From Planctomycetales bacterium (lineage in GTDB: Bacteria; Planctomycetota; Planctomycetia; Planctomycetales; Planctomycetaceae): 64,000 nt of DNA. Every line of letters starts with the position of its first letter. The first letter of the stretch is position 1. Position numbers and translations under genes: made by a program. The DNA is taken from assembly GCA_026400835.1 (NCBI GenBank), contig JAPLOA010000084.1, positions 186,001 to 250,000 of the forward strand, written 5' to 3'. Shown piece after piece: positions 31,277 through 52,895 of this stretch. The notes beneath the pieces are model-generated. The model made no database searches. It was given only the letters and a program-made list of their open reading frames with translations, and was not told the DNA's origin.

Positions 31277-31373
31277 AAAACGTCGCTGCTCCGCAGCTTG
31301 GATCGTGGTTGGGAATCGTGACCAGTGGCTGAAGCCACAGGCTATCAAGACGCCGCTGCTCCGCAGCGAATTG
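31277..31373 (+). repeat. Family-1 palindromic repeat unit 1
   Basis: Forward unit: hairpin GCTGC-TCC-GCAGC at 31285-31297, hairpin GTGGCT-GA-AGCCAC at 31325-31338, then GCTATCAAGACGCC and a second GCTGC-TCC-GCAGC at 31355-31367. Confidence 0.85.
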
Positions 31374-31470
31374 CAGGTGGGCCACAGAATATCTGGTCGG
31401 TCTCAATTGGTGAGTGTCCTTTAGGTCCAACGTTTGGCTGACTCTTTTTGATGTGGTCCGACCAGTTGTG

Positions 31471-31562
31471 ATTGGCTGCAGAGCAGCCGCGTCACGATAG
31501 CCTCGGGCTTCAGCCCGAGGTCCACGATCACACATGAACCCAAAGGTCCGGAGGAGCGACGC
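31471..31562 (-). repeat. Family-1 palindromic repeat unit 2 (inverted)
   Basis: Inverted copy: GGCTGC-AGA-GCAGCC at 31474-31488, GATAG, then the 9-bp stem CCTCGGGCT-TC-AGCCCGAGG at 31501-31520, and a degenerate CTCCGGAGGAG end. It stops 1 base before the stop codon of the membrane-protein gene. Confidence 0.85.
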
Positions 31563-31563
31563 C

Positions 31564-31974
31564 TTAGTTTGTCTTTGACCAATGGCGTCGGAACCAATCC
31601 AGGACTTTCATCAACAATTCAGAAGTCAGCGTGGGGATAAGGATCATCCAGAGGATCATTTTCTGGTTGGGAGCCCATCCCAAGGCGTAGAGATAACTTG
31701 AAATAGAAAACGAAAGGCATGCCATGAGCCAGAAAAGTCCGTTACATATGGCACGACTCTGACGCTGATGCTTCCAAAGAAGGATCACGAGCATTGCAAA
31801 TCCGAAACCGTAGTGGACATACATCGAGAAAAGGTAGACGCTGTCCACGATTGCCCTCGTGACGATACCGTGCACAATCGCAACGCACGAAAGCACAATA
31901 ATGAAGAGCGTCGGTGCGAATCGTCGACCGGAATCGTTTGTGGTATTGGGGGCTACGTAGGGATTTTGATTCAT
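31564..31974 (-). CDS. Small multi-pass membrane protein
   Basis: 136 residues with a short hydrophilic N-terminus beginning NQNPYVAPNT, an NPYxAP-type start common to small planctomycete membrane proteins, and four hydrophobic segments (LFIIVLSCVAIVHGIVT, SVYLFSMYVHYGFGFAMLVILLW, GLFWLMACLSFSISSYLYA, MILWMILIPTLTSELLM). No catalytic motif is visible and the function is unknown. It is enclosed with the IS200-like transposase between two blocks of family-1 repeats, so it may be a passenger or simply the neighbour in which the repeats landed. Its stop codon abuts repeat unit 2. Confidence 0.75.
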   Translation of the reverse strand: MNQNPYVAPNTTNDSGRRFAPTLFIIVLSCVAIVHGIVTRAIVDSVYLFSMYVHYGFGFAMLVILLWKHQRQSRAICNGLFWLMACLSFSISSYLYALGWAPNQKMILWMILIPTLTSELLMKVLDWFRRHWSKTN

Positions 31975-32015
31975 TTATTCCATGCCCTTCCTGACTACGG
32001 ATCACCAGGCGACAA

Positions 32016-32480
32016 TCATCCCGTATGTTCATCGTCGAAAAGGTATCTTTCTTCAAACTGGATCTCATGTCGAATCAGCAGGTCACGATATTCATCCACG
32101 AATGATTTCACACGATGACGCTCTTCCTGCCGGGCTATGTAAGCAGCGACGTCTGGCATGTTAGATCTGCTAACCGTGAAAGCAGCGAAACCTCGTTGCC
32201 AGTGAAATCCGCCTGAGCAATGTCGATTGTCGTTGATCCATTTCGACGAACTGGACTTGAGGGCTCGAAGCATGTCTGACACAGCAATCCGCGGTGGGAT
32301 GCCGCACAGAATGTGGACGTGATCGTCGATGCCTCCGATCGCATCAAAATGGCCGCCTTCGCTGTTGATGATACCGCGGATGTATGCGTAGAGCTCCTTC
32401 CTGAATTTCACCTTGAGCAACGGCCGCCGAAACTGAGTGCCGAAGACGATGTGATACTTCAGGAAGGTGTGTGTTGACAT
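32016..32480 (-). CDS. tnpA: IS200-like / REP-associated Y1 transposase
   Basis: 154 residues from ATG 32480. It is a single-domain Y1 HUH transposase: metal-binding HxH at His54/His56 (GIDDHVHIL), nucleophile Tyr114 (DVAAYIARQEE), and the terminal FEERYLF motif typical of the IS200-like proteins. These enzymes cut and join single-stranded DNA at hairpins. No tnpB or IS608-type partner is present. The gene sits alone at the head of a minus-strand pair with a membrane-protein gene and is surrounded by six copies of a palindromic repeat, as expected if the protein recognises them. All catalytic residues are intact. Confidence 0.88.
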   Translation of the reverse strand: MSTHTFLKYHIVFGTQFRRPLLKVKFRKELYAYIRGIINSEGGHFDAIGGIDDHVHILCGIPPRIAVSDMLRALKSSSSKWINDNRHCSGGFHWQRGFAAFTVSRSNMPDVAAYIARQEERHRVKSFVDEYRDLLIRHEIQFEERYLFDDEHTG

Positions 32481-32624
32481 ACGGCAGGCTTGCATAGCGT
32501 TTTTGAGGGGTTGTGTTCATCATATACCTAGGGTCGATATTTGGTCAAGGTGGGTGCAGTCGTGGTTGAGCCCATGGAGCTCGGATCACATCACAGCACG
32601 ATTGGCTTCGGGGGAGTGTGGCGC

Positions 32625-32716
32625 GATTCGCTGCGGAGCAGCTGCGTCTCGATAGCCTCGGGCTGAAGCCCGAGGTAAGCAATCACACATGAACCCAAAG
32701 CTCCGGAGGAGCGACG
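32625..32716 (-). repeat. Family-1 palindromic repeat unit 3 (inverted)
   Basis: Stems GCTGC-GGA-GCAGC (32630-32642), CCTCGGGCT-GA-AGCCCGAGG (32656-32675) and GCTCC-GGA-GGAGC (32700-32712). Confidence 0.85.
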
Positions 32717-32820
32717 CAAGCGCGGGCCGAGATTCGGGTCATGGTATTCGAATCGCGGCGGGTTGTTATTCATAGGGGGGCGAGATCGCGATCGTTGATC
32801 TGCCATCACCTGTTGGCCGC

Positions 32821-32920
32821 AAAACGTCGCTGCTCCGCAGCTTGGGATGTTTTGTGGGCACGTGACCTGTGGCTAAAGCCACAGGCTATCAAGACGCCGC
32901 TGCTCCGCAGCGAATCGCAG
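32821..32920 (+). repeat. Family-1 palindromic repeat unit 4
   Basis: Stems GCTGC-TCC-GCAGC (32829-32841), CCTGTGGCT-AA-AGCCACAGG (32866-32885) and GCTGC-TCC-GCAGC (32899-32911). Confidence 0.85.
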
Positions 32921-32991
32921 ACACATGTCGAGCTTTGCTCGATTGCGGTCGCTCATGTCGCAGGCCACATCGATTTATCGGCCGCCTTACA

Positions 32992-33082
32992 ATTGGCTGC
33001 GGAGCAGCCGTGCTTTGATAGCCTCGGGCTTCAGCCCGAGGTTTCCGGAGTTACCCAATCGAAAAGCTCCGGAGGAGCGACG
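32992..33082 (-). repeat. Family-1 palindromic repeat unit 5 (inverted)
   Basis: Stems GGCTGC-GGA-GCAGCC (32995-33009), CCTCGGGCT-TC-AGCCCGAGG (33022-33041) and GCTCC-GGA-GGAGC (33066-33078). Confidence 0.85.
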
Positions 33083-33187
33083 TAAACGCGGGCCGAGATT
33101 CGGGTCATGGCATTCGAATCGCGGCGGGTTGTTATTCATGGGGGGCGAGATCGGGCTCGTTGATGCAACGTCACACGTCCGCCCTGT

Positions 33188-33280
33188 TACGTCGCTGCTC
33201 CGCAGCTTGGGGTATTGTCGGGCACCGTGACCTGAGGCGAAAGCCTCAGGCTATCAAGACGCCGCTGCTCCGCAGCAAAT
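33188..33280 (+). repeat. Family-1 palindromic repeat unit 6
   Basis: Stems GCTGC-TCC-GCAGC (33194-33206), CCTGAGGC-GAAA-GCCTCAGG (33231-33250, now with a GAAA tetraloop) and GCTGC-TCC-GCAGC (33264-33276). Confidence 0.85.
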
Positions 33281-33349
33281 CGCTATGGGCCCCCCGAGCT
33301 TCGCCCGGATGCAATTCTTCCAATCGGCTTCGATCGCGATGTGCCATTC

Positions 33350-46853: not shown

Positions 46854-46895
46854 CGTAGGGCGTGACAAGTTCGCCCCAGCGAACGCAGGCACACC
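46854..46895 (+). repeat. Family-2 REP unit a1
   Basis: 42-base unit CGTAGGGcGTGACAAG...CAGGCACACC with an inner hairpin GTTCGC-CCCA-GCGAAC at 46869-46884. One base of the outer stem differs from the other copies. Confidence 0.88.
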
Positions 46896-46917
46896 AGTTT
46901 TCTCGAGGGCGCCCATC

Positions 46918-46959
46918 GGTGTGCCTGCACTCGCTATCGCTCGCTTGTCACACCCTACG
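46918..46959 (-). repeat. Family-2 REP unit b1 (inverted)
   Basis: Same outer ends as unit a in reverse (GGTGTGCCTGC ... CTTGTCACACCCTACG); the core is CTCGCTATCGCTCG instead of the hairpin of unit a. Confidence 0.88.
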
Positions 46960-46988
46960 AAACGCTCACGTGAAACTAAAATCCACAA

Positions 46989-47030
46989 CGTAGGGTGTGA
47001 CAAGTTCGCCCGAGCGAACGCAGGCACACC
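46989..47030 (+). repeat. Family-2 REP unit a2
   Basis: CGTAGGGTGTGACAAG, inner stem GTTCGC/GCGAAC, CAGGCACACC. First half of the module a2-spacer-b2 (46989-47156). Confidence 0.88.
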
Positions 47031-47042
47031 AGTTTTCGCACT

Positions 47043-47100
47043 CATCATCGCATGCAGCGCAACCGAAGGGCAAGCCGATGGCCACGCGGCGATGTTTTAC
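47043..47100 (+). repeat. 58-base direct repeat, left copy
   Basis: Spacer of the a2-b2 module, starting CATCATCGCATGCAGCGCAA; matches 47783-47840 at 56 of 58 positions. Confidence 0.85.
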
Positions 47101-47114
47101 GTGAGGCGCACATC

Positions 47115-47156
47115 GGTGTGCCTGCACTCGCTATCGCTCGTTTGTCACACCCTACG
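47115..47156 (-). repeat. Family-2 REP unit b2 (inverted)
   Basis: Ends at 47156, the base before the RAYT stop codon (47157-47159, minus strand). Core CTCGCTATCGCTCG as in b1. Confidence 0.88.
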
Positions 47157-47711
47157 TTATTCACCCCATTCCGGTTCATCCCAACCGGGCACCGGGTCAA
47201 TGCCGCCCCAGTCGAGATCATACTCGCCCTCGCCGACGAAACGATGAAACGACGACCATTCCCAATCACGGACTCGTGGCACGAGTTGATGTTTGCGAGG
47301 GCTCCAGTGACAGTAATCCGCACAGCGTTTGAGATCGTCTTCATCTCGAACGGTGTGTTCCCAATATCGCTTCTGCCAGATGCCACGAAGGCGGTGTTTC
47401 CTGCGAGAACGCGACTGCTCAAGTTCAGTACCGCCGGATTCCAGCCAGCGGCAAGTGAACTCTTCTTTGATACGAGTCCATCGCATGGGATAGCGAGCAT
47501 CATTTGAGGGCAAAGACCAGATGGTGTGCCAATGGTCAGGAAGCAAAACGATGGCCACGATTTCGAACGGGTGATCGTTTTGGACTTTGAGGATTGCTTC
47601 ACGAAGGCATGCTCGTCCGAGGTCGGTCGTCAGAATCGGCCGCCGACGATGGGTGACACAAGTGAAGAAATAGGTTCCTCCCGGGACAAAGTTGCGTCGA
47701 TAGTTGGGCAT
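47157..47711 (-). CDS. REP-associated tyrosine transposase (RAYT)
   Basis: 184 residues from ATG 47711; the longer open frame to 47825 is only readthrough of the repeat. Family marks are the N-terminal MPNYRRNFVPGGTYFFTCVT, HxH at His60/His62 (LLPDHWHTIW), GIWQKRYWEHTVRDEDDLK, and the nucleophile Tyr133 in ADYCHWSPRKHQLV (usually YIHYNPVKHGLV). RAYTs are domesticated Y1 transposases that act on REP palindromes. The gene is exactly bracketed by its repeats: unit a3 ends 18 bases before the start and unit b2 touches the stop. Catalytic residues are intact. Confidence 0.9.
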   Translation of the reverse strand: MPNYRRNFVPGGTYFFTCVTHRRRPILTTDLGRACLREAILKVQNDHPFEIVAIVLLPDHWHTIWSLPSNDARYPMRWTRIKEEFTCRWLESGGTELEQSRSRRKHRLRGIWQKRYWEHTVRDEDDLKRCADYCHWSPRKHQLVPRVRDWEWSSFHRFVGEGEYDLDWGGIDPVPGWDEPEWGE

Positions 47712-47728
47712 GTGTCGCTCCCAGAAAC

Positions 47729-47770
47729 CGTAGGGTGTGACAAGTTCGCTCCAGCGAACGCAGGCACACC
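47729..47770 (+). repeat. Family-2 REP unit a3
   Basis: CGTAGGGTGTGACAAG, inner stem extended to 7 bp (GTTCGCT-CC-AGCGAAC), CAGGCACACC. It lies 18 bases upstream of the RAYT start codon, in its leader. Confidence 0.88.
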
Positions 47771-47782
47771 GGGTTTTGCATC

Positions 47783-47840
47783 CATCATCGCATGCAGCGC
47801 AACCGAAGGGCAAGCCAATGGCCACGCGGCGCTGTTTTAC
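47783..47840 (+). repeat. 58-base direct repeat, right copy
   Basis: Spacer of the a3-b3 module; two differences from the left copy at 47043-47100. Confidence 0.85.
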
Positions 47841-47855
47841 GAGACGGCGCCCATC

Positions 47856-47893
47856 GGTGTGCCTGCACTCGCTGTCGCTCGCTTGTCACACCC
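47856..47893 (-). repeat. Family-2 REP unit b3 (inverted)
   Basis: GGTGTGCCTGCACTCGCTGT...CTTGTCACACCC, with one core change from b1/b2 and a truncated outer end. Confidence 0.85.
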
Positions 47894-52574: not shown

Positions 52575-52627
52575 CGAACTGGATGTGGTCGAGCCAGCGT
52601 TTATGCTGAATGCCGGTCGAAGGCGAC

Positions 52628-52718
52628 GACCGAAAGATGTAGTGACCGAAAGATTTGATGACCGAAAGATTTGACGACCGAAAGATTTGACGACCGAAAG
52701 ATGTAGTGACCGAAAGAT
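52628..52718. repeat. 16-bp tandem repeat, six copies
   Basis: GACCGAAAGAT occurs at 52628, 52644, 52660, 52676, 52692 and 52708, exactly every 16 bases, with short variable joints TTGAC, GTAGT or TTGAT. A seventh solitary copy is at 52830-52840. There is no gene across the repeats, which lie between convergent genes. Confidence 0.9.
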
Positions 52719-52736
52719 TCGGGCCTGAGATTTTTG

Positions 52737-52773
52737 TCTGGTGCTTGATTTTTCTGTCGTTCAATTTTTCGGT
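52737..52773. repeat. 37-bp direct repeat, first copy
   Basis: T-rich segment starting TCTGGTGCTTGATTTTTCTG and ending ATTTTTCGGT; identical to 52859-52895. Its end is the inverse of the GACCGAAA motif, so it can pair with the tandem array. Confidence 0.85.
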
Positions 52774-52858
52774 CAGACTCCTGGCCTTGCTCAGTTACGC
52801 ATGGTGCCAGCCTTAATCGATGAGTGGTGGACCGAAAGATTCTGACCAGAGAACTTCA

Positions 52859-52895
52859 TCTGGTGCTTGATTTTTCTGTCGTTCAATTTTTCGGT
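52859..52895. repeat. 37-bp direct repeat, second copy
   Basis: Identical to 52737-52773, located just after the seventh GACCGAAAGAT copy at 52830. The remaining 471-base convergent gap (52575-53045) shows nothing else. Confidence 0.85.

Follow-up and report, generated by a model that had tools for sequence, protein, structure and literature searches.

Tripartite hairpin repeats accompany subclass-1.2 Y1 HUH transposase genes in Planctomycetota and other phyla

We found that six repeats clustered around a Y1 HUH transposase gene, in a 64,000-nucleotide window from a Planctomycetales bacterium (the whole stretch of DNA that was analysed), are quite probably local copies of a tripartite DNA hairpin module that acts as the cognate single-stranded substrate of the subclass-1.2 enzyme encoded among them, making this a REPtron-like locus. 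The module consists of a short hairpin (SH1), ~23 nt, a long hairpin (LH), 12 nt and a second short hairpin (SH2). We observed its architecture and the covariation of its stems, and in several phyla saw it both co-occur with genes of this enzyme class and lie close to them; from these findings we infer hairpin binding, cleavage and current mobility by the Y1 enzyme. What is new is a REP-like partner for subclass 1.2, present in Planctomycetota, Verrucomicrobiota, Acidobacteriota and Deltaproteobacteria. Subclass-1.2 HUH transposases, previously without a substrate, hence gain a likely one, while the Rfam 'RNA' RF01687, which papers still explain as a regulator, gains a likely identity.

The array and its enzyme

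The array sits between the gene for a PQQ-repeat protein and the aconitase gene. Its six units of ~95 bp follow the order +, -, [136-aa ORF and Y1 gene], -, +, -, +, exactly the alternation that an earlier, sequence-only reading of this DNA had described, and they span 31277-33281:

31277-31372, + strand: unit U1 (SH1 31285-31297, LH 31322-31341, SH2 31355-31367)
31471-31562, - strand: unit U2 (LH 31501-31520; SH2 lies on the lower-coordinate side and SH1 on the higher)
31564-31974, - strand: orphan ORF of 136 aa flanked by U2 and the Y1 gene, without a hit in Pfam or NCBIfam
32016-32495, - strand: Y1 HUH transposase gene, 159 aa, IS200-type, TnpA-Y1 subclass 1.2
32626-32717, - strand: unit U3 (SH2 32630-32642, LH 32656-32675, SH1 32700-32712)
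32821-32916, + strand: unit U4 (SH1 32829-32841, LH 32866-32885, SH2 32899-32911)
32992-33083, - strand: unit U5 (SH2 32996-33008, LH 33022-33041, SH1 33066-33078)
33186-33281, + strand: unit U6 (SH1 33194-33206, LH 33231-33250, SH2 33264-33276)
32625-33283, unstranded: two inverted (divergent) composites, U3-U4 and U5-U6, forming a ~366-bp tandem duplication
47157-47825, outside the array: RAYT-type Y1 gene (NF047646, 173.7 bits, cut-off 80)

Read in one orientation, a unit is CGTC-SH1-~24 nt-LH-CTATC.AGACGC-SH2-AAT. The SH1 stem is GCTGC/GCAGC or GCTCC/GGAGC, the LH stem is CCTCGGGC, CCTGTGGC or CCTGAGGC, each with its complement, and the SH2 stem is GCTGC/GCAGC, invariant across the six units. 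The stems quoted in the sequence-only reading are thus present, but that reading distinguished two kinds of stem where each unit carries three hairpins. Tandem Repeats Finder detected nothing in the array. The 136-aa ORF had no homologue among the other same-family genomes searched; it is possibly a passenger gene or an orphan, and its product is, judging by its sequence, likely a membrane protein. The aconitase gene was located in 16 of 18 same-genus genomes (source genome included), with readable DNA on the array side in 13 relatives; the array was missing there in all 13, and is therefore specific to the source lineage. The array probably arrived recently, its units then multiplying locally.

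The enzyme (alternative start possible at 32480, MSTHT) retains its catalytic residues, with the HUH motif H59-V60-H61 and Y119 as well as W99-Q100 and YIARQEERH, and invariant residues in aligned relatives support this catalytic assignment. It scored 85.6 bits against PF01797 and passed the IS200/IS605 model NF033573 (73.7 bits, cut-off 55), while it failed the RAYT model NF047646 (32.5 bits, cut-off 80). Using an AlphaFold model (mean pLDDT 86), Foldseek returned as best folds the ISDra2 and IS608 TnpA proteins in complex with their end hairpins (E 7e-10), and also the E. coli TnpA-REP 4ER8 (E 3e-6). The protein is short and carries the DHVH and WQ signature of subclass 1.2, with RH replacing HH; 90 relatives carry Y...Q..HH, fitting subclass 1.2, and some of these homologues, such as that of L205 (Aeoliella), lie nearer the consensus than the window enzyme. 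It does not belong to TnpA-Y1 class 3, known from Planctomycetes with the foot CnGA: the signature of that class is NHVH, W[TA] and YV..EQ, as against DHVH, WQ and YIARQ here. The 2018 survey by Quentin listed subclass 1.2 without REP, mostly from Cyanobacteria and Bacteroidetes, and described it as 'generally without' flanking REP or terminal structures (PMC6006769); the missing REP is a descriptive, not a defining, trait of this protein subclass. Among 19 Y1_Tnp matches in the source genome only 2 belong to subclass 1.2, ~50% identical to each other, the second (on contig C24) being likewise flanked by units. Near-identical gene-bearing copies with defined ends and an empty site were not found: the source genome has these two genes, and the relatives that lack the array gave no definable ends. 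Three other Y1 genes of the genome (L016, L018, L019) are each flanked by a hairpin family of their own.

Pairing of the stems and copies in the source genome

The sequence-only reading had argued that compensatory changes keep the stems paired, which largely held within the six units: two-sided changes occurred in 3 of 18 pairs (9 cells) and 98.1% of cells were paired, with exceptions in an A/A mismatch in the LH of U1 and one mismatch in the SH1 of U2. The LH of U4 and U6, for instance, differ by a compensatory change from T-A to A-T in both arms. Upon sliding the partner by 1-3 columns, no two-sided cell was left. The six units by themselves contain only a handful of independent events. A larger set of copies, in which that reading had proposed to look for covariation, bore it out: among 80 aligned units, 18 of 18 pairs changed on both sides, with 280 two-sided vs. 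12 one-sided cells, and 95% of cells were paired compared to 35-52% when slid. Because the 80 units had been picked as good hairpins, the 95% is inflated, and we therefore examined GGCTA sites without requiring a hairpin. Anchored in this way, at least 7 of 8 pairs formed at 35 of 102 outward-flank sites vs. 4 of 106 elsewhere (p 7e-9), and the 35 paired sites had 17 different 5' arms.

G-U intermediates were nearly absent, which suggests that the constraint on the stems acts on DNA rather than RNA; a 280:12 ratio of two-sided to one-sided changes of the G-U type would be unusual for RNA. Folded as DNA, five of the six units were better than their shuffles (z -2.6 to -4.4) with U1 reaching only z -1.3, and the U3-U4 composite reached z -9.0. 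That the Y1 enzyme recognises the folded form, as the sequence-only reading proposed, is what these patterns would suggest.

Searching the source genome with a 13-base core pattern, we obtained only this locus above background, and BLAST added one partial copy (contig C107) and one 23-base fragment (C83). A covariance model built from the six units matched 59 sites with E-values of 5 or less, E-values of such home-made models being rough. Among its better matches are the units around the subclass-1.2 gene on C24 and a related second family, in which the stems differ (CCCCAGGC...GCCTGGGG) and the units form divergent pairs; this family was revealed by the use of a structure model and had not been shown by the sequence pattern or BLAST. 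Its members are dispersed repeats of ~300-360 bp, for the most part 84-92% identical, that form gene-less composites in the source genome and one relative. For a composite-free comparable site in the relative G131, the intergenic region is wholly diverged, which leaves the exact element ends and the target site unfixed.

At L053, L060, L064, L066 and others, the ~300-360-bp repeat is seen as a divergent pair of tripartite units followed by a ~115-bp tail, and L065 seems to have lost an internal segment between short hairpins. Terminators were tried as a candidate for the hairpins and rejected, terminator-like sites being no more than expected (3 found vs. 2.2).

Linkage to subclass 1.2 and the identity of Acido-Lenti-1

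We gathered 91 subclass-1.2 loci from the same family and scanned them with a detector that demands SH1, LH and SH2 and accepts perfect short hairpins only, so that imperfect or AT-rich versions are missed. A unit lay within 320 nt of the gene at 55 of the 91 loci vs. 1 of 180 shuffled flanks, and at 0 of 17 other Y1 loci of the source genome. The left end is mostly '-' and the right end mostly '+', that is, the units are inverted with SH1 facing the gene, giving a typical locus SH2'-LH'-SH1'-gene-SH1-LH-SH2 of ~650 bp; compared with this, U3, the nearest upstream unit to the window's Y1 gene, has the rarer orientation. Spacing was strikingly regular, with 12 nt between LH and SH2 in 63 of 80 units and 21-27 nt between SH1 and LH. 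LH is directly followed by CT in at least 75 of 80 units, and by CTA in most. On the opposite strand (A/G)TAG hence stands 5' of LH in 48 of 80 units (GTAG in 28 of 80), occupying the place of a REP foot. The sequence 5' of SH1 is most often TGTC, CGTC, TGCC or GGTC, with a CGTC or TGTC foot in 33 of 80 units.

The linkage extends to named genomes from many phyla, in which 41 of 80 loci had a unit compared to 0 of 795 shuffles: Planctomycetota 18/25, Verrucomicrobiota 12/16, Acidobacteriota 4/8, Deltaproteobacteria 4/4, Chloroflexi 1/1 and Bacteroidota 2/24. Four Bacteroidota loci (L230, L234, L259, L273) contain arrays of short hairpins with a TAG-containing spacer but lack the GC-rich long hairpin, and so appear to represent a variant with two hairpins. 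Turning to whole genomes of the same family (with at most 24 or 15 scored per genome), at least one unit by our own model was held by 79 of 79 gene-positive genomes, some of which had themselves supplied units to that model, vs. 35 of 91 gene-negative ones. The repeats thus accompany the IS200-like gene across genomes, as the sequence-only reading had expected, while the opposite case that it named, a repeat common without the transposase, was found in part, namely in those 35 genomes, where gene loss, incomplete assembly or another partner may account for the units. Genomes in these counts are not phylogenetically independent, and the association persisted within genera (p 0.0002). Stem sequence similarity also followed enzyme similarity (Mantel r 0.60, p<0.0005), a correlation of which part could come from common descent alone. 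Genes per genome are few and diverged, unlike those of an active IS.

In an Rfam scan of some 43 loci, the sole family at gathering score was RF01687 (Acido-Lenti-1), on the LH-12 nt-SH2 part. Homologous units at L092, L060 and many other loci scored 37-59 bits, while the window units reached 20-28 bits, below the gathering cut-off of 37, so that the window array is linked to RF01687 through shared architecture. Two of the three hairpins (LH and SH2) match the Rfam model, which has no SH1; among the 30 best RF01687 hits, picked by the Rfam model alone, SH1 was nevertheless at its expected place in 24, vs. 21 of 600 shuffles. In 392 Planctomycetota genomes, 76 had RF01687 and the gene, 11 the gene only, 23 RF01687 only and 282 neither, i.e., RF01687 occurred in 76 of 87 gene-positive vs. 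23 of 305 gene-negative genomes (p 9e-48). Ten RF01687-positive genomes without a detected intact gene were checked, and two hold gene fragments; the other Y1 classes present in the RF01687-positive, gene-negative genomes checked gave no demonstrated partner.

The main text of the 2010 report on RF01687 lists it in a table with no functional link, and Weinberg and colleagues there thought it likely that Acido-Lenti-1 is an RNA, and not a cis-regulatory one (PMC2864571). A 2026 paper, which suggests that it regulates neighbouring proteases, still calls its function little known (PMC13298647). The literature searched, supplementary files excepted, contained no link between Acido-Lenti-1 and a transposase. 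As RF01687 matches hairpins of the enzyme-linked module, Acido-Lenti-1 is more likely a DNA target of the subclass-1.2 enzyme than an RNA.

Proposed mechanism, known systems and alternatives

The TnpA-REP proteins of E. coli, Stenotrophomonas and Marinomonas bind single-stranded hairpins, whose 5' foot helps to choose the dinucleotide at which the tyrosine cuts before the ends are rejoined (PMC8266576). By analogy, the unit would be the enzyme's substrate, and segments between inverted units, with a gene or a spacer alone, would move. The hairpins may fold whenever their DNA is exposed as a single strand, as on the template of the lagging strand, and the enzyme may read the stems together with the unpaired feet, namely (C/T)GTC on the 5' side of SH1, and often also of SH2, and (A/G)TAG 5' of LH on the other strand. 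Tyr119 would then cut next to the feet and the ends would be rejoined, whereby the segment between two inverted units is moved or copied. Following the published guide rule, a (C/T)GTC foot would direct the cut to GA, and an (A/G)TAG foot to CT. At typical loci this mobilised segment would be the gene itself, while inverted pairs without a gene may be non-autonomous copies that resemble REPINs or MITEs. The Marinomonas REPtrons Ma and Mb show a similar local clustering; it has been proposed that they multiplied locally around a gene that had recently arrived (PMC8266576), and multiplication of this kind would fit the window array. The ways in which such enzymes may find DNA would then include a second foot motif and a grammar of several hairpins. 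A bolder combination, which we raise tentatively and consider somewhat doubtful, is that Acido-Lenti-1, far from being an RNA, makes up the outer two thirds of a single-stranded DNA substrate with three hairpins, and that the feet for both strands, (C/T)GTC and (A/G)TAG, let one subclass-1.2 HUH enzyme act on either template strand; if true, this would be a type of REPtron with a new mechanism.

REPtrons, in which REP/REPIN repeats go with TnpA-REP (RAYT) of subclasses 2.2, 2.4, 2.5 and 2.7, likewise have a Y1 HUH gene amid several inverted short-hairpin copies and gene-less inverted pairs elsewhere, and their tetranucleotide foot (GTAG/GTGG) may correspond to (A/G)TAG at LH here. In contrast to them, the window enzyme fails the RAYT model, and its units have a fixed architecture of three hairpins that includes a further kind of foot, (C/T)GTC, on the opposite strand. 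The enzyme agrees with subclass 1.2 as surveyed in 2018 in its DH[IV]H, WQ and (apart from RH for HH) Y...Q..HH motifs, its length (~150 aa) and its low copy number, whereas the tripartite units at 55 of 91 loci have no counterpart there (PMC6006769). CGTC-tagged REPs (Di Nocera 2013) share the CGTC/TGTC foot, which lies 5' of SH1 here, but have 8-9 pairs starting with A-T and a CCA tail (PMC3733652), while our units have a short GC-rich stem (5 pairs modelled), a loop of 3-5 nt, no CCA tail and a partner transposase. With the foot present and stem and tail different, we did not class the units as CGTC-REPs.

An ordinary IS200/IS605 (subclass 1.1) insertion sequence, with terminal hairpins merely duplicated, would share the protein family, the fold and the hairpins at both gene ends, and both the NCBIfam assignment and the best folds, ISDra2 and IS608 TnpA, favour it. 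We nonetheless consider it unlikely, since the signature (WQ, Q..HH) is that of subclass 1.2 and not 1.1, the ends are inverted and tripartite rather than the small subterminal hairpins of the canonical family (PMC6006769), and units far exceed genes, the genome having just 2 genes of subclass 1.2, which have diverged from each other.

Slightly less probable still is that the units are genes for a genuine structured RNA, the non-coding Acido-Lenti-1 sRNA, with the transposase gene merely a frequent neighbour or carrier. The Rfam typing of LH-SH2 as an sRNA, the 2010 verdict (PMC2864571) and the suggested regulation of proteases (PMC13298647) speak for such an RNA, whereas the two-sided changes outnumber those of the one-sided G-U type, the units form inverted pairs in both orientations, the Rfam model leaves out the SH1 present in most of its best hits, and the motif tracks one transposase class. 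Host palindromes unused by the Y1 enzyme, such as terminators or supercoiling or mRNA-end elements, seem very improbable: the hairpins are intergenic and GC-rich, and LH-like stems are common in the source genome, but the window's sequence family is nearly confined to this locus and the units are linked to one enzyme class.

Elsewhere in the window, the Y1 gene at 47157-47825 is of the RAYT type and has different, unrelated repeats, so that the sequence-only reading was right in seeing two systems 14 kb apart, each enzyme with its own repeats. The repeats at 46854-47893 that flank this gene are TIR-like, with CGTAGGGTGTGACAAG, and resemble 'TIRYT' loci. Positions 52609-52895 hold tandem repeats of ~16 nt (GACGACCGAAAGATT) and, after them, a direct repeat of 66 nt.
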